From Oscillatoria sp. CS-180 (lineage in GTDB: Bacteria > Cyanobacteriota > Cyanobacteriia > Phormidesmidales > Phormidesmidaceae): a stretch of 38,889 nt of DNA. The DNA lies in assembly GCF_028330965.1 (NCBI RefSeq), contig NZ_JAQMUB010000028.1:1-38889 (forward strand). The letters are read 5' to 3'. Of the stretch, positions 22,179 to 38,683 are shown piece by piece; positions within the stretch are counted from its first letter, which is position 1; each line of letters starts with the position of its first letter. The notes under the pieces were generated by a model. That model saw nothing but the letters and a program-made list of their open reading frames with translations, made no database searches and had not been told where the DNA came from. A program made the position numbers and the translations under genes.

Positions 22179-24440
22179 GTGACGCTGGGACGACGAGAGT
22201 TTTTGCAGCGGTTAAGCGCAGCCCTAGCTGCGCTTGGTATGACGGAAACGACCCTAATCGGGTCGTCGAATGCTTACCAACAGGCATTTGCAGCTTCTGC
22301 TCGTTGTCTCGCGTTACTGGTGGGGATCAACAACTATTCGCCTGAAACTTGGCAAGAAGTACCTACTAGTAAGGGCACTTTTTTACAAGGAGCTGTTACT
22401 GATGTCGAACTCCAGCGAGAGCTTCTGGTCAATCGTTTTGGTGTGCCATCCCGAAACATCGTGACATTGGTCAATGCCGAAGCGACCGTTAACACGATTT
22501 TGGAAACTATACAGGGACACCTGATAGCTCAAGCTGAGCCGGGTGACACGGTGATTTTTCACTTCAGTGGTCTGGGCAGTCGCGTTCATCTACGGGGGCA
22601 TCCCGACGGGGAGTATTTGCCCACCCTAGTTGCCGCTGACAGTGCCCTCCCCGCTAACGAAGTCCCTGTTATTCAGGATTTGTTTGAAGAAAGTATCGTT
22701 CAGTTACTGAAGGGTCTTAAAGGGGTCAAAATATTGACCGTCATCGATGCCAGTGCGGCGACTCAGGCTGAGGGATTTAAAGGCAATTTTCGTGTGCGAT
22801 CGCGCCCCACATCCCCTTCAGGCATTTGGCAAACCCCCTTTGATCCCCAGTTGCAAGAGCCTCGAAAGTCTCTGAAACAGCTTTCCAAGAACTGGCCTGG
22901 ATTTTTACTGCGAGCTAACGCGGTCGATTTTCCAGCATTGGAAGGCAACTGGGATAGCTTCAGTGCTGGCCTATTTACCTATGCTCTGACTCAGCAAATT
23001 TGGACCACTCTACCCGCGCAGCGGCAGCAGTGGTTCATCTATCGCATCGATCGCAAAATGTCTGCTTGGACGGGCACCGATAAGGCCCCGCAACTTTTAG
23101 GGCAGCGATCTAGTCAACAAACGGGCTTGCCCTTGCTCACCGGACGTCTGCCTAAACCGGCTGCAGATGGCGTTGTCAAGACGATTGATACCGTCAACAA
23201 AACCGCTACTCTCTGGCTGGGTGGCCTCTCTTCTGAACTCCTGCCATACTGCGAATTAGGCTTGCGACTACAGCCACTGCCCACTTTGCCAGGACTAGCG
23301 GCGATTCCCAAGGGCACATTGACTGTCAAAACGATGAATGGACTGCGGGCCAAGGCAGAGGTCGTCCAAGAGGATCCCCTTGCTGTAGGGACTCCACTTG
23401 TCGAAATCGAACGACGATTTCCGAAAGAAATCACATTAACTGTAGCCCTTGATCCAGATCTAGAGCGTATTGAGCGGGTTGATGCCACTAGCGCACTATC
23501 CAGCATGTCTTACATTTCAACGACAGCACCCGGTGAGCGGCAGGCCGATTGTTTGTTTGGTAAGGGAATGCTGTCATCTCGATCGCTTCAGGGTGCTGGT
23601 GGCCAAACGGAAGGTACGGGCACTCAGCCCGATGTCAATAGTGATCCCCCCGCCGTTCAACTCGGATATGGCTTGTTCACACCGGATCGCTCTCCGATTA
23701 CAGGAACGGCTGCTGAGGATGAAGAAGCCGTCAGAACAGCCATTAGCCGGCTAACCGCACCGCTAAGAAGTTTGTTGGCGGTCAAAATGCTGCGGCTAAC
23801 GACTAATTCAATTTCGTCTCAGCTGCCCGTCAGACTGAGCTTAGAAACGCTGAAACCCAGCCGAAAAATGATCCTAGTTGAAGAAACTCTGCGATCGCGC
23901 CAGATTGCCAGCACGTCCTCCGGTAGCCCTGGCCAAGTTGCGTTCGACAATCTGACAAATTTTAGTGGTGATAAATGTCAAGTTCGGCTGCTGAACTCTG
24001 GACAAGTACCGCTGTATTACCTGTTGGTGAGTATTGTTGAAAAAAATCGGCTGTCGATTTACTGCCCGCTGGTAAATCTGCCAGAAGGGGTTGAGCAAAC
24101 TAGCAGCGAAATTGCTGAGGCTAGTCTTCTATATCCTGGAAAAAGTCGTCGATTTCCTCAGACGGAAGAAACTACTTTTTCACTCCAGCCCTTACAGTCC
24201 ACAGAAATTTTCGCCATTGCTTGCACTCAGCCTCTCTCAGAAACCTGGAAAGCAATTCGGACACCCGAATTTCGCCAGCTCAGCGATCGCTGGTCCACCA
24301 TTTCCGAACCCTTAGCAATGACCAAGGCGCTGTTCCGGGACCTCAACTCTGCCAGTACCCAATCCGGAAATCGAGATTCCTCCATTCCCGAAACGATCAC
24401 TGCCTTGAAGTCCGCCGCGTGGTCAACATTGTCTCTGTAA
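22179..24440 (+). CDS. Tat-exported caspase-fold (orthocaspase-like) protein lacking the His/Cys dyad, with DUF4384-like C-terminus
   Basis: 753 residues. It opens with GRREFLQRLSAALAALGM, a twin-arginine signal. The caspase p20-like fold follows: CLALLVGINNY (residues 43-53), a helix-strand pattern, GDTVIFHFSGLGSRV (122-136) and KILTVIDASAATQAEG (184-199). In active family members these last two read SGHG and DSCHSG. Here Leu132 replaces the catalytic His and Ser192 aligns with the catalytic Cys, so proteolysis is not expected. The C-terminal 170 residues (NLTNFSGDKCQVRLLNSG, YYLLVSIVEKNRLSIYCPL) resemble a DUF4384 domain. GTG start at 22179, 18 bp after sat. Probably a periplasmic binding or regulatory pseudoprotease; inactive variants are known among cyanobacterial orthocaspases. 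Confidence 0.85.
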   Translation: MTLGRREFLQRLSAALAALGMTETTLIGSSNAYQQAFAASARCLALLVGINNYSPETWQEVPTSKGTFLQGAVTDVELQRELLVNRFGVPSRNIVTLVNAEATVNTILETIQGHLIAQAEPGDTVIFHFSGLGSRVHLRGHPDGEYLPTLVAADSALPANEVPVIQDLFEESIVQLLKGLKGVKILTVIDASAATQAEGFKGNFRVRSRPTSPSGIWQTPFDPQLQEPRKSLKQLSKNWPGFLLRANAVDFPALEGNWDSFSAGLFTYALTQQIWTTLPAQRQQWFIYRIDRKMSAWTGTDKAPQLLGQRSSQQTGLPLLTGRLPKPAADGVVKTIDTVNKTATLWLGGLSSELLPYCELGLRLQPLPTLPGLAAIPKGTLTVKTMNGLRAKAEVVQEDPLAVGTPLVEIERRFPKEITLTVALDPDLERIERVDATSALSSMSYISTTAPGERQADCLFGKGMLSSRSLQGAGGQTEGTGTQPDVNSDPPAVQLGYGLFTPDRSPITGTAAEDEEAVRTAISRLTAPLRSLLAVKMLRLTTNSISSQLPVRLSLETLKPSRKMILVEETLRSRQIASTSSGSPGQVAFDNLTNFSGDKCQVRLLNSGQVPLYYLLVSIVEKNRLSIYCPLVNLPEGVEQTSSEIAEASLLYPGKSRRFPQTEETTFSLQPLQSTEIFAIACTQPLSETWKAIRTPEFRQLSDRWSTISEPLAMTKALFRDLNSASTQSGNRDSSIPETITALKSAAWSTLSL

Positions 24441-28173: not shown

Positions 28174-28418
28174 GGCGCGTCGTCATTTAGTGCTGGAAGT
28201 CTTGTGGAATCAGCATTACCGCGCCCGCCCCAGATTCATAAGCTAGGGGCTCAAATCTTCATTGCTGAGGCATTGCAGATCTCAATGATGACAGCCCCTA
28301 GCGCTGCCAGTTTTGGCGAGTTTTACTACACTACGAAGAGTGAATATTGCCTTGCTGCTCATCGGTATTGAGCAAGGTCAAGGTTTCCTCTCCTGTTGCC
28401 CTTCAACTCCATACCGCT

Positions 28419-29186
28419 ATGAATCCTTTAACTCCTCTTCTCCATTTAGTCGGCTCCGGAGCGATGGCTTACGTTCTGGCTAATCAGATCCGCGATGAAA
28501 AAACTCGCCCTAATGTATTTGCGGGCTTCTACTTTGCTGAATCAGGTTCCGTACCGTTTTTGACGAAACTGCGCGATCGCGCCCAATCTGAAGGCGATTT
28601 GTGGCTAGCAGAACGGCTCACTAAGCACGCGAATGACGAACGCCGTCACGGTCAAATTTTTGCCAACGCTTTGAAACAGAGCGGGAAAGAAGCCATTGAC
28701 TTGAAGGCTCTGGCTGAAACGAATAGCTCGGAACAGGCTGCTGACAAAAAGGAACAAAGCAGTCCTTTCTTTGATGCGTACTATTCCGATTACAGTCAAG
28801 CTGACTTGAAACCCGAAGTAATTGATTGGCGGGTGTTCCTGGGCAGTACTTACATTTTGGAAGCCGATGCCTGCTTTGACTTTCGTCGAATGGCTGGAGC
28901 GCTGGATGGCGTGCCGAATATGGACAAAGTTCAGGCTGGGATCATTAGTGTTGCTGAAGATGAGGCCCGCCACGCGGGTTATCTCAAAGAGGCCATGCAG
29001 CGTCGCTACGGCTATTTTGCGACGGAAAACCTGATCAACGAGTGGCGATCGCGTAAGGTTGACGCTTTGATGGCAATGGTTGGCAACTTGATTGAGCGAC
29101 GAGGCAAAATGCATACCCTGGCTCAAGATAGCGTCGATGGTGAGGTCGAAGCAGACACCTCTTTAGATCTTCCCGTTGCAGCCTAG
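28419..29186 (+). CDS. ferritin-like diiron protein
   Basis: 255 residues from ATG 28419 (MNPLTPLLHLVGSG); an upstream extension to 28347 is possible but unlikely. A four-helix ferritin-like metal site can be read: Glu41 (FAESGS), ExxH in NDERRHGQ (Glu74, His77), a Glu in TYILEADACFDF, and ExxH in EDEARHAGYL. This Glu...ExxH...Glu...ExxH pattern binds two irons. Members act as oxygenases, oxidases or iron-handling proteins; the substrate here is unknown. A conserved cyanobacterial protein of this type is known to me only as 'ferritin-like'. It stands alone between ygfZ and repeat copy 6. Confidence 0.85.
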   Translation: MNPLTPLLHLVGSGAMAYVLANQIRDEKTRPNVFAGFYFAESGSVPFLTKLRDRAQSEGDLWLAERLTKHANDERRHGQIFANALKQSGKEAIDLKALAETNSSEQAADKKEQSSPFFDAYYSDYSQADLKPEVIDWRVFLGSTYILEADACFDFRRMAGALDGVPNMDKVQAGIISVAEDEARHAGYLKEAMQRRYGYFATENLINEWRSRKVDALMAMVGNLIERRGKMHTLAQDSVDGEVEADTSLDLPVAA

Positions 29187-29667: not shown

Positions 29668-30798
29668 TTAGACGATCGCGTCTACAAAATCAGGAATATC
29701 CGCGATGGGGACAGAGAGAAGCTGACCAAGACTAGCAATCGTTTGCTCAATGTTGAACGGTTCTTCGCCAACGGTTCCTGATCCCGTGACAACACCATCC
29801 GTAATGGCAACACTGCCCTCAACTTGGGAGACTAGCCCGAATGCCTGAGATGTGAAATCAGTGATATCGACCGCTGTTTCAAACGTCTCAGTGCCCGAAG
29901 ACGCAACGAGGTCAACCTGTCCCCCTATCAGACTGGCGTCTACGGCCACTCCAGTGAGCGCATCGGTTACAAAATCGCTAACAATCTCATCGACGGCAAA
30001 GCTAGCCCCTATTGGGCCTATCAGAGTATCGATGGCTATTGTAGCTGTGCCGTCACTGAGTCCGAGTTCTCCAGAAATGGAAGAGAGGGGAATTGGAACA
30101 ATCTGGTCAGCGAATAAAGGGATTTCAATATTACCGCTCTGCAAATTGATGTTGATATCAACTTCGCCTAAAGGGGTTGGCGCGGTGACTGCGTATTGGG
30201 CATCGGCTCCGAACTCAAAATCGAAATCAATGTCTCCAGCAGGGGTATCCAAGAGAACGTTGAAGTCTCCACCTGCAATATCAATGACGCCGCTGATCGG
30301 ACCCAAGCCCGTTTCGAACCCGATGACAAAAGCACCTTGCTGAATGGGAATCGTTGTGTCGATGGACGACAGCAAAAAGTCAAAACCTTCAGCCGCAAAG
30401 GTTGCTAGGTCGAACCCTTCGACTACATAGGCGTTGCCGTCAAAGTTGAGGTTGGCGTTGACGATGCCCTCAACCAAGGATAGAGAACCCGAGGCCTGAT
30501 CAATTAGAACATCTAGGTTGGTCAGGAAGCCCAACACGTCGAAATCGATTGCAGTAACATCGCCCGTCTCTGATGTGAGCGAGATGCCAAGTAAACCATC
30601 TGAGATTGCAGCAGTTCCATCAATCGTCTCAAGCAGTGCAAGACCATCGACTACAAATTCTTCAGCATCCGAGCTAAATGCTGAAACAACATCAAGTACA
30701 GACGTAGTATCCAGGAACTCCGAGTCGAGATCTAAATCCAAATCTAGACCCAGATCCAGATCAGACCAAGTGTCAGAGCTAAATAAAGTTGATAGCAT
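29668..30798 (-). CDS. highly acidic protein without Lys, Arg, His or Cys; candidate type I secretion substrate
   Basis: 376 residues. By direct count it has 64 Asp plus Glu and no Lys, Arg, His or Cys; the only Met is the first and there is one Trp. The N-terminus is an alternating Asp-Leu run (DLDLGLDLDLDLDSEF). The rest is a series of degenerate beta-strand units with recurring patterns such as (A/S)ISDGLLGI, GLSDGTATIAID and AITDGVVTGSG, about 20-40 residues apart, as in a beta-solenoid or beta-sandwich. No N-terminal signal peptide is present. The C-terminus, IPDFVDAIV, ends with an acidic residue followed by hydrophobics, as in several ABC-exported (type I) proteins, which also lack Cys. 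No family recognised. Function unknown; Ca2+ binding or cell-surface role is a guess. Confidence 0.8.
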   Translation of the reverse strand: MLSTLFSSDTWSDLDLGLDLDLDLDSEFLDTTSVLDVVSAFSSDAEEFVVDGLALLETIDGTAAISDGLLGISLTSETGDVTAIDFDVLGFLTNLDVLIDQASGSLSLVEGIVNANLNFDGNAYVVEGFDLATFAAEGFDFLLSSIDTTIPIQQGAFVIGFETGLGPISGVIDIAGGDFNVLLDTPAGDIDFDFEFGADAQYAVTAPTPLGEVDININLQSGNIEIPLFADQIVPIPLSSISGELGLSDGTATIAIDTLIGPIGASFAVDEIVSDFVTDALTGVAVDASLIGGQVDLVASSGTETFETAVDITDFTSQAFGLVSQVEGSVAITDGVVTGSGTVGEEPFNIEQTIASLGQLLSVPIADIPDFVDAIV

Positions 30799-30956: not shown

Positions 30957-31060
30957 GTAGCTTTGGCTATCTAGGCCGGTGTACTCAATAGCTTTCGAGT
31001 GCTTAGCGGGATAGCCCAATGGCTCGCCGTCTTGTCCTAACGGAACTGACGACGGCTATA
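30957..31060 (+). repeat. dispersed ~100-bp structured repeat, copy 7 (contains the rsmI stop codon)
   Basis: Plus orientation: GTAGCTTTGGCTATCTAGGC, GTGTACTCAATAGCTTTCGA, GTGCTTAGCGGGATAGCCCA, ATGGCTCGCCGTCTTGTCC, TAACGGAACTGACGACGGC and TATA. The terminal TATA/TATAG overlaps the last codon positions of rsmI on the minus strand, so the element sits exactly at the gene's 3' end. Confidence 0.85.
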
Positions 31061-31910
31061 CATCCGGGAGTTCCACCGCAATCTGATAAATTTCTCGTTT
31101 GGAGTGGCCCGTTTCTTGAGCGAGCTGGCGGCTGGCCTGCGATCGCGACAATCCTGACCGCAAAAGTTCCAAAAGTCGCTGTTCGATCTCTGCTTTTGTT
31201 AAGGTTTGTGCTGGCTCAGACGGCTGTCCTGCAATAACTAGGGTGAATTCGCCTTTAGGGGCGTGGTCGGTGTAGTGGGCGATCGCCTCGTCCAGGGTGC
31301 CTCGCCATGCCTCTTCGAACTGTTTGGTCAATTCTCGGGTGGCAGCAATACGGCGATCGCCCGCCATTTGACTGCGCAGATCCTGAAGCGTTGTCAATAA
31401 GCGATGTGGTGCCTCGTAGAGAACTATCGTGCGGTGTTCAATCGCGATTTGATTGATCAGTTCCCGGCGATCGCGTCCCTTTGTAGGCAAAAATCCTTCA
31501 AAGACGAAGGGCTGCGGCGGCAAACCCGATACACAGAGGGCCGTCACGACTGCCGTGGCACCTGGGATGGCAACCACCGGAATATCCGCCTCTACGCAAG
31601 CCTCTACTAGCTCAAATCCAGGATCGGAAATGCCCGGCATTCCCGCATCGCTAACCAACGCGACCTGTTTGCCCCGCTGGAGCAGGGTCGTCAACTCTGG
31701 CAAGCGCTTGCGCCAATTATGAGCGTGATAACTCATTTGTGGCGTCTGAATCTGAAAGTGATGCAGCAGTTTACCTGTGTGTCGAGTATCTTCAGCAGCA
31801 ATCACATCGGCGTGTTGCAGGGTGTCAATCGCACGAAAGGTCATGTCGCCCAGGTTGCCAATGGGTGTGCCAACAATGTAGAGGGTGCCGTTACCATTGC
31901 TATCCGTCAC
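31056..31910 (-). CDS. rsmI: 16S rRNA (cytidine1402-2'-O)-methyltransferase RsmI
   Basis: 284 residues of the tetrapyrrole-methylase fold. The start region LYIVGTPIGNLGDMTFRAIDTLQHADVIAAEDTR is diagnostic, followed by SYHAHNWRKR, VALVSDAGMPGISDPG, IPGATAVVTALCVSGLP, FVFEGFLPTKGRDR and APHRLLTTLQDL. The C-terminal helices (LRSGLSRSQASRQLAQETGHSKREIYQIA) form the small extra domain common in this family. It methylates the 2'-OH of C1402 in 16S rRNA, near the decoding site, using S-adenosylmethionine. Its stop codon lies within the end of repeat copy 7, so the repeat joined the gene precisely at its 3' boundary and may have replaced a few C-terminal bases. Confidence 0.96.
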   Translation of the reverse strand: MTDSNGNGTLYIVGTPIGNLGDMTFRAIDTLQHADVIAAEDTRHTGKLLHHFQIQTPQMSYHAHNWRKRLPELTTLLQRGKQVALVSDAGMPGISDPGFELVEACVEADIPVVAIPGATAVVTALCVSGLPPQPFVFEGFLPTKGRDRRELINQIAIEHRTIVLYEAPHRLLTTLQDLRSQMAGDRRIAATRELTKQFEEAWRGTLDEAIAHYTDHAPKGEFTLVIAGQPSEPAQTLTKAEIEQRLLELLRSGLSRSQASRQLAQETGHSKREIYQIAVELPDV

Positions 31911-36404: not shown

Positions 36405-38087
36405 TTAACCGGAACTACGACTATGGAGTTGGCGATGACAATCGGGATGCAGCAGTGCCAGATTGCTGAGATTGTCAGACCCACCCAACGCTTTGGGCAA
36501 GCGGTGGTGGATATGCCACTCCTCATCGAGCGATAACCCGGCTGAACAGTGCCAGCATCGCCCCTGTTGTTGACACCATAGCGTCTTCACCCGACGGGCC
36601 CGCTTGGGATGGCGCAGCAGTTGTTGTGTCCATCGCCGCTCAAAGTACATCTCCCAGTCTGGGTCATAGGGATTAGCCGCTCCTCTAATCTTGGTATGCC
36701 GCTGCCAGCGAAACTGATTCAGCTGCACCAAGGTGTAGAGTTGGCGCTGCCCCTCCACCAAAACAGGAGCCCCAAACACCCAGTGATTGCCGCCAACGGT
36801 AAAGAAGTATTTCTGCTTCACCCACCGTTTCGACTTATTGGGATGACGTCGCTTGGCCCAACGCCAGAGGGCTTGGAAGATGTGATGAGCCACCTTGACA
36901 AAGGTGGCGCGGCTCGGTGCGTGACGGTGGTAGAGTGCCCAACCCCGAATCAAAGGATTGAGCCAGCGAATCAACGCAGCAGCAGGGGCCGTTTTATGGG
37001 CTTTAATCAGGGTTCTGATTTTGGTCAAAAACGCCTTGATATTGCCTTTTGCCGGTCGGATGCGCAGTTTACCGTTGACCTTGCGCAGGTGCTGCCCCAA
37101 GAAATCGAACCCGTCTTGGATAGAGACGATGTGGGTTTTCTGAGGCGATAACCTCAGCCCCCGCTCGGCGAGAAACTGCTCAATGAGCGGTTTGACGTGC
37201 TGCTCAAGCAGAGTCTGAGAGCGCCCCGTCACCACAAAGTCATCACAGTAACGAATCAGATTCACTTGGGGATTGTCATAGGGCGGATGCTTCGATTTTC
37301 GGAAGTGACGGCGCAATAACTCTTGCAAGCCATCGAGAGCCAGATTCGCTAGAACGGGCGAGATGATACCCCCTTGGGGCGTACCCGCAGCGGTCGCATA
37401 CCATTGTCCTTGTGCCATGAATCCGGCTTGCAGCCACTGTCTGAGAATCCCCTTGTCCATTGGGATGTGAGCCATCAGCCAGTCATGACTGATGTGGTCA
37501 AAGCAGCCTTTGATATCGGCATCGAGCACCCACTGGGCTGAGGTTTTCAGCATCAGCACCGTCCGACATTGCTCTATTGCATCGGCGGTGGAGCGTCCTG
37601 GACGAAAGCCATAGGAGTTTCCATCAGCCGTCGTTTCGACAATGGGCTCCAAACTTAACAAGTACAAGGCTTGCATGGCCCTATCTAGCATCGTTGGAAT
37701 CCCCAACGGTCGTTGTTGACCGTTGGCCTTGGCAATGTAGACCCGCCGCAAGGGTTGGGCTCGATACCCCCGTTGTTGCAGACGACCGATAGCCGCTGCC
37801 TTTTGGGGTGGGCTAGACCAGCGCTCTCCATCCACGCCTGGTGTTCGTTTGCCTTGATTCTCGGTGACACGTCTAACGGCTAAGGCTTTGCCGCTAAACG
37901 AGTGACTCAGCAGACGTTGCAAGGCGTTCACCTTGCCCCATCGCTGGGCCTGCACGGCCTTAACGATACGAGCTTGCAGCCGACGCACGGTTCGCTGAAC
38001 CTTAGACCAATCGATGGTCATCCAGTCCACTGAATCGCCGAAAGGCGCACCAGCATTCAGTCTTGTCAGGCAAGTCTGAGCCGTCAT
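36405..38087 (-). CDS. ltrA: group II intron-encoded reverse transcriptase/maturase with HNH domain
   Basis: 560 residues from ATG 38087 (MTAQTCLTRL), with a purine-rich GAAAGGAAAGCAG site upstream; the frame opens at 38171. RT blocks: PLRRVYIAKANGQQRPLGIP (about 112-131), SYGFRPGRSTADAI, LDADIKGCFDHISHDW (catalytic Asp about 191), GTPQGGIISPVLANLAL (about 235-251), RYCDDFVV (280-283 YCDD), and GLRLSPQKTHI. A maturase domain X follows. The C-terminus is an HNH endonuclease: CWHC, EWHIHHRLPKALGGSDNLSNLALLHPDCH. The protein helps splicing and drives retrohoming. The RYCDD motif and HNH end fit the chloroplast-like (CL) class common in cyanobacteria. All catalytic residues are intact. Confidence 0.95.
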   Translation of the reverse strand: MTAQTCLTRLNAGAPFGDSVDWMTIDWSKVQRTVRRLQARIVKAVQAQRWGKVNALQRLLSHSFSGKALAVRRVTENQGKRTPGVDGERWSSPPQKAAAIGRLQQRGYRAQPLRRVYIAKANGQQRPLGIPTMLDRAMQALYLLSLEPIVETTADGNSYGFRPGRSTADAIEQCRTVLMLKTSAQWVLDADIKGCFDHISHDWLMAHIPMDKGILRQWLQAGFMAQGQWYATAAGTPQGGIISPVLANLALDGLQELLRRHFRKSKHPPYDNPQVNLIRYCDDFVVTGRSQTLLEQHVKPLIEQFLAERGLRLSPQKTHIVSIQDGFDFLGQHLRKVNGKLRIRPAKGNIKAFLTKIRTLIKAHKTAPAAALIRWLNPLIRGWALYHRHAPSRATFVKVAHHIFQALWRWAKRRHPNKSKRWVKQKYFFTVGGNHWVFGAPVLVEGQRQLYTLVQLNQFRWQRHTKIRGAANPYDPDWEMYFERRWTQQLLRHPKRARRVKTLWCQQQGRCWHCSAGLSLDEEWHIHHRLPKALGGSDNLSNLALLHPDCHRQLHSRSSG

Positions 38088-38683
38088 CTGCTTTCCTTTC
38101 TCAATCGGTTTCTCAAGCGCTCTCGTCAGCCAAAACCATCGTGGAAGTCTGCTCGCTTTCGCGCCGGTCAACGGACCGTATCTGAGCGATTACCACCCAG
38201 CCTTCGCTTTTTCCACGCTCCTTTACCCACTGCCCTATCAGAGCCCTTTGCAGGTCTCCTGCCCGAATGGGAGGACATTGGGCTTACCACGTTCCGCGTT
38301 CATACCTTGAGGGGGCAGGGGTGACCTCTTCGCCGAGAGCACGTCAACTGCGCTAGGAAGGGATTCAGTTCCCAGTCTTGGCTCCTGTCTGGTTAGACCA
38401 GCCTGACAGCACCTTGGGCTGTTAATTTTTAACGACGTTTATCAGTCATTCACATCTGTTCCCCAATACCCTCACTCCTAGCTCCCGACCGGTTTGGTGC
38501 TACTAGTCCCAGTGTCCTCTCGCAAATTCACTGACATCTTTCGATGAGGCAACATTGTCCCTAGCGCTTCACACCGTCTGATTACTCTGACCGCATGGCT
38601 AGGTAGGAGACTGATGGCAGTACATCAGGTTGTGTCCGGGTATTAATCGGCACAACAGCTATCAACGCGACTTCGTGTCGCAC

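Follow-up and report, generated by a model that had tools for sequence, protein, structure and literature searches.

The window analysed here, that is the whole stretch of 38,889 nucleotides from Oscillatoria sp. CS-180 (NZ_JAQMUB010000028.1, positions 1 to 38,889), carries on its minus strand an ORF at 29668..30798, which consists of 376 codons and a stop codon (included, at 29668) and encodes a protein of 376 aa. This protein contains 44 Asp and 20 Glu, 64 acidic residues in all, and not one Lys, Arg, His or Cys (K, R, H, C) over its entire length; its net charge is -64, with no positive charges. An earlier note on this DNA had given the same length, acidic count and absence of the four residues, and on recount these values and the coordinates proved exact. 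ATG is the sole start codon available in the open frame upstream, and the absence of K/R/H/C is therefore independent of the choice of start. For comparison, naive ORF calls of at least 150 aa (n=522) were taken from a 795,654 bp (~0.8 Mb) sample of the same genome, the window included. Given the composition of sampled ORFs of this genome (12.0% K+R+H+C) and assuming independence, the probability of finding none of the four in 376 residues is log10 P ~ -21. The window gene is the only one of the 522 with zero K+R, its product has the lowest K+R+H (median 11.7%), and its longest run free of K/R/H/C, 376 residues, compares with 195 for the runner-up. The gene is present in a single copy in its genome, and a search for sigma-70-like promoters nearby returned 0 matches, with 1.5 expected by chance. 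A plasmid search gave no match to it and a pattern-based scan of viral contigs revealed no relative; on these grounds the idea of a mobile or plasmid gene was dropped.

Directly upstream, on the same strand, lies a gene for an RsmI-type methyltransferase (31056..31910, minus strand). An RsmI gene also adjoins the homologous gene in two Halomicronema genomes (L068; L069 = L070) and is found farther off in L072; this adjacency is synteny at the level of the genus. A conserved operon was rejected because the neighbours differ between genera, and those shared neighbours that were examined gave no functional link; they comprise RsmI, PfkB, RadC, CbiM/CbiN, a methyltransferase, one protein resembling beta-lactamases and one resembling Rce1. 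On the downstream side of the gene, and in the opposite orientation, the window encodes a rubrerythrin/ferritin-like protein (28347-29186, plus strand). Further features are a caspase-like (Peptidase_C14) protein of 753 aa (22179-24440, plus strand) and a group II intron reverse transcriptase/maturase with an HNH endonuclease domain (36405-38171, minus strand).

Ninety five related genomes were searched for homologues, of which 28, the genome of the window included, were positive with one match each, at 25-53% identity over most of the length. A family alignment and profile, built from 19 of these 28 proteins, found matches in 46 of 388 Cyanobacteriia genomes (again including the genome of the window). 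Four taxonomic families are represented, and the matches fall at one place per genome, with up to five candidates scored in each. In a phylum-level draw of 292 genomes the genome of the window was the sole match, and the family is therefore patchy. Cyanobacteriia is the only class with members in the collections searched; those named come from Nodosilinea (among them Nodosilinea nodulosa PCC 7104), Tildeniella, Phormidium tenue, Leptolyngbyaceae and uncultured Halomicronema. G001, a genome from the same genus as the window, gave no family match, though a HlyD-like match is present there beside an ORF of HlyB size. A scan of genome contigs with the window protein alone as query gave no match. 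The counts for 39 proteins given below combine the 28 proteins of the related-genome search with 11 distant members. Extraction left out eight of the 46 positives (G093, G219, G289, G311, G332, G336, G361 and G366), some of which are fragments. Start codons of the 28 closer members were picked by hand; the L084 sequence was trimmed to begin five codons into the frame, a single codon ahead of its Met, and an internal stop shortens it in the genome, and L028 is a frame without a start codon. The members from one genus (g2; L020 and L023-L026) carry ~100 additional N-terminal residues, and four of these five have zero Lys, with 2-4 Arg in the whole protein.

Searches of Pfam, NCBIfam, PHROG and PDB sequences with the window protein returned nothing above cut-off (0 families). 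Scanning of 19 members likewise gave no Pfam match above cut-off and no convincing E-value in NCBIfam or PHROGs. A close match to a cytoplasmic family did not appear, and the suggestion that the family is undescribed is upheld by these profile searches. Moreover, no description of the family was found in the open-licence literature on lysine-, arginine- or basic-residue-free proteins or on secretion in Nodosilinea and Halomicronema. A parallel in composition is offered by lysine-desert proteins, which also have long lysine-free stretches; however, in the available part of PMC10665810 such deserts are tied to pupylation or ubiquitin, and the present family avoids Arg, His and Cys too. Judged by sequence, the proteins form a new, unnamed family built of repeats, in which K, R, H and C are almost always avoided.

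The 14,779 residues of the 39 members include 39 K and 96 R but a single H and a single C. If the 28 closer members are counted over their whole open frames, codons before any start included, the totals for the 39 become 63 K, 142 R, 3 H and 8 C, ~1.4% of 15,070 residues. Lys is absent from 28/39 members, Cys from 38/39 and His from 38/39, and seven of the 39 lack all four. Avoidance is strictest among members from the genus of the window and looser in distant members, where K+R+H reaches 4.4%. Acidity, on the other hand, is not conserved: among the 39 members D+E ranges from 7.5 to 20.1%, and their net charges lie between -93 and -15. What is conserved is that Cys and His are missing and that Lys and Arg are scarce. 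Twelve pairs compared gave dN/dS of 0.09-0.19, the gene therefore being under purifying selection; dS is saturated (above 2) in both pairs that include the window copy. When the window copy is compared with either of two Halomicronema copies, 180 residues differ, and K, R, H or C stands on neither side of any of these differences. Among one-step replacements, with transitions weighted twofold, 13-14% would be expected to create one of the four, an expectation that ignores burial, and some deficit is expected from buried positions. These comparisons show that the avoidance of K, R, H and C is conserved and selected: across several cyanobacterial families, selection has nearly removed four kinds of residue from a repeat protein more than 300 residues long.

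The repeats reported in the earlier note are real, since a shift of 43 columns aligns the family profile with itself at a probability of 99.2%, and their strands are predicted. As a rough consensus the unit has G-T-L-x-x-x-N-G-x-L-x-S-D-L-T-T-P-x-G, after which come a strand and a helix. Searching with a profile of the repeat found it at family loci in 40 of 388 genomes; the genome of the window was not above threshold, the repeats being degenerate there. Against the window protein alone the same profile scored 33.2 bits (bias term 54.9), with shuffled sequences scoring at most 9.8 (442 reported of 500). The best of five AlphaFold models, from a 14-sequence alignment, has a mean pLDDT of 71.3 and a pTM of 0.37 (other models, pLDDT 56.1-66.9). 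It contains 24 short strands with short turns, and three strands followed by a helix at five places, many strands alternating hydrophobic with polar or acidic residues. A beta-solenoid, in which parallel coiled strands stack in rungs, had been suggested for structure prediction; with a pTM of 0.37 global confidence is poor and the overall shape of the model unreliable. Disorder throughout was not predicted, the model being strand-rich at a pLDDT of 71. The 141 C-terminal residues modelled alone gave no confident fold (pLDDT 45.9). Fold assignments were discarded both for 16 PDB chains found by Foldseek at E <= 0.001 (TolB, sliding clamps and others; TM ~0.1, rmsd >23) and for VIA-align, where the best Z was 3.9; a viral structure library gave nothing at E <= 0.001.

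Along the chain, whose parts are all encoded on the minus strand, residues 1-24 (30727..30798) make up an Asp-Leu-rich N-terminus of low model confidence, without a positively charged n-region. Two predicted units of three strands and a helix follow, at residues 60-101 (30496..30621) and 103-145 (30364..30492), both supported by the model and the repeat profile. A central stretch, residues 147-237 (30088..30360), has nine predicted strands without helices, by model and alignment, and holds many invariant residues (G155, G166, G170, G177, G188, F196 and G222). Three strands and a helix are again predicted for residues 242-282 (29953..30075; model and repeat profile) and 284-324 (29827..29949; model, with a weak repeat-profile match). 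The last unit, residues 326-360 (29719..29823; model and repeat profile), ends in a short helix and leaves a tail of residues 361-376 (29671..29718) that ends DAIV. Both termini had been singled out in the earlier note, and both traits are present in the window sequence, but neither is a feature of the family. The long Asp-Leu run is absent from relatives, L006 and L012 having shorter acidic/hydrophobic alternations, and the C-terminal end is not conserved.

Because basic residues are absent, the window protein has neither a Sec n-region nor a Tat twin arginine, and because Cys is absent it has no lipobox; a clear membrane segment is also missing. Its peak 19-residue hydropathy is 1.49 and the best 10-residue value near the N-terminus 1.1, and with no K/R and such low hydropathy no cleavable N-terminal signal was found. 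N-terminal hydropathy does not discriminate in all members, some reaching 1.8-2.0 against 1.7 for a Sec-like control. If the protein is exported, Sec and Tat are therefore unlikely and type I secretion remains as the known leaderless route. Type I export signals lie at the C-terminus; one example is a chain that ends in an acidic residue and then hydrophobic ones. The DAIV end of the window copy was considered as such a signal; however, an acidic-then-hydrophobic end is found in 5/39 members and a conserved signal of this kind was rejected. The further proposal that the protein might bind calcium is not supported. RTX nonapeptide (GGxGxD) and EF-hand patterns are absent from the window protein and HemolysinCabind gave no Pfam match, so that identity as an RTX protein, defined by GGxGxDxUx repeats, was rejected. 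A conserved role as a calcium-binding polyanion was rejected on the same patterns together with the variation in D+E (7.5-20%).

No type I exporter gene was found among 20 ORFs scanned in the window, the gene under study among them. Elsewhere in the genome, where the earlier note had proposed looking for ABC exporter genes, contig C59 encodes a type I HlyB (780.5 bits, cut-off 725.55) beside a HlyD that scores just under its cut-off (205.2 against 208.65). This finding is not specific. HlyD-like matches occur in 59/59 genomes, over cut-off in 36 (the genome of the window not among them), and in 13/14 controls, and the presence of HlyD therefore says little. In six of twelve genomes of the Nodosilinea genus a HlyD over cut-off, the only one among the matches listed, lies 6.7-9.9 kb from the gene with other genes between, and it adjoins a type I HlyB in the one genome checked. 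Among the matches listed for the other six, HlyD lies 128 kb away, ~250 kb away or on another contig (n=3), with none over cut-off in one. Outside this genus, G006 and G034 have same-contig HlyD matches over cut-off at least 2.9 Mb away. Support for export from the gene neighbourhood is thus weak and bound to one lineage.

A resemblance is seen in the composition of other proteins of the same genome. Eleven of the 15 ORFs next lowest in K+R+H (of 522) were scanned, and seven match RTX, FG-GAP, choice-of-anchor or phytase-like families; three were without a match, and the eleventh is a permease. Six of the seven matched exoproteins are Cys-free; they come from three contigs, four of them in one cluster, and are not independent. 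Leaderless exoproteins of the RTX and FG-GAP/choice-of-anchor types are type I cargo. Like them, the window protein has little or no Cys and very low basic content, is acidic and is built of repeats; its composition resembles theirs. It differs in lacking GGxGxDxUx nonapeptides, FG-GAP domains and a recognisable C-terminal export region, in a far more extreme charge bias and in an unrelated repeat. Contig C17 encodes five large proteins clustered side by side (L104:138-18227), all Cys-free and low in basic residues: two have choice-of-anchor I domains (one with RTX and nuclease domains, one with a phytase-like domain), two have FG-GAP, and the fifth has a 5'-nucleotidase C-terminal domain. Contig C31 encodes a 437-aa Cys-free orphan (L157:15094-16404, plus strand) with 1 Lys and 8 Arg, which matches neither Pfam nor the family profile.

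Taken together, these data are best read as pointing to a leaderless exported repeat protein of the cell surface or matrix, probably secreted by the type I route, to which we assign a probability of roughly one half. The earlier note had likewise proposed an exported, perhaps type I, protein; that is plausible, on the indirect evidence of the missing signal peptide, the composition and the HlyB/HlyD genes. The gene encodes a chain of ~43-residue repeats predicted to form a long strand meander with helices; the chain may leave through the HlyB/HlyD-type exporter of the cell, its lack of positive charges easing the passage. Once outside, the chain could fold into a rigid, acidic-faced repeat rod and join the cell surface, sheath or matrix. 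In the available part of PMC11031901, positively charged stretches block secretion by ABC exporters and their removal enables it, and in that of PMC3034196, S-layer proteins are acidic and lack cysteine. With this charge rule and this S-layer composition, export is the most economical explanation. The window protein shares acidity and absence of Cys with S-layer proteins, but by Pfam it has no S-layer or RTX domain. Against export stand the absence of RTX repeats and the extent of the repeats that are present, which reach so near the C-terminus that a separate signal of ~60 residues would have little space. The rarity of acidic-plus-hydrophobic ends, the restriction of exporter proximity to half the genomes of a single genus and the relaxed avoidance in distant members also count against it.

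Alternatively, the protein may be cytoplasmic or part of the envelope and hold lipid or pigment in a hydrophobic groove. In that case meanders of an odd number of strands, with a helix that crosses back, would build a single sheet, hydrophobic on one face, like that of repeating-beta-groove lipid carriers. Repeats of three amphipathic strands and a helix mimic that logic, and sub-threshold Pfam matches to T2SSN, which we take to be close to AsmA-like proteins, occur in 2/19 and 3/9 members (one member in both sets; best E 0.00047). Every one of these matches is under cut-off, however, and the window protein has none; nor did Pfam scans give any match to Chorein-N or AsmA. The main text of PMC6791001, in its available part, covers AsmA and TamB and leaves T2SS and GspN unmentioned. 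Repeating-beta-groove domains have five strands and a helix or loop per repeat (PMC7613979, available part), whereas the unit predicted here has three strands, and a membrane anchor is absent. The low pTM and the fold searches lend no credible fold to the comparison, and the absence of K, R, H and C is left unexplained. We therefore regard a groove protein as unlikely.

A very abundant protein might also be purged of nitrogen- and sulphur-rich side chains to save resources. Side-chain nitrogen is indeed the lowest of 248 ORFs from the same genome (0.059 per residue, median 0.354), and sulphur after the start Met is zero, tied lowest with one other ORF. However, Asn+Gln is only moderately low (5.6%, median 8.7%, rank 21 of 248), from which it follows that charge and not nitrogen is avoided, and such economy is in any case compatible with export rather than exclusive of it. 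As the reason for the composition we find it distinctly improbable.

The net charge of -64 with no positive charge could instead suit a negatively charged mimic or inhibitor inside the cell, such as a DNA mimic, an anti-restriction protein or a counter-charge partner. Acidity is not conserved across the 39 members and a mimic is therefore unlikely; the single locus per positive genome among scored candidates and the lack of plasmid matches and viral-contig relatives also speak against it, so that we give it very little weight. A non-coding chance frame, for which only the odd composition and the lack of promoter matches can be cited, is already refuted by homologues aligning over most of the length and by the low dN/dS, and is practically negligible.

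No tryptic peptide of 7-30 residues can be obtained from 23 of the 39 members, the window protein included, and trypsin-based exoproteomics would therefore miss such proteins systematically. It is possible, if doubtful, that the family represents an undescribed class of exported structural proteins in cyanobacteria, with a rule of no positive charge and a new three-strand-plus-helix fold. The negative chain would repel itself and stay unfolded for export, then fold into surface or matrix rods as ions outside the cell screen its charge, and the class may have gone unseen so far, as trypsin is unable to cleave it. Should export prove to be the reason for the avoidance, the family would mirror in nature the rule, known from engineering, that positive stretches are rejected by ABC exporters.
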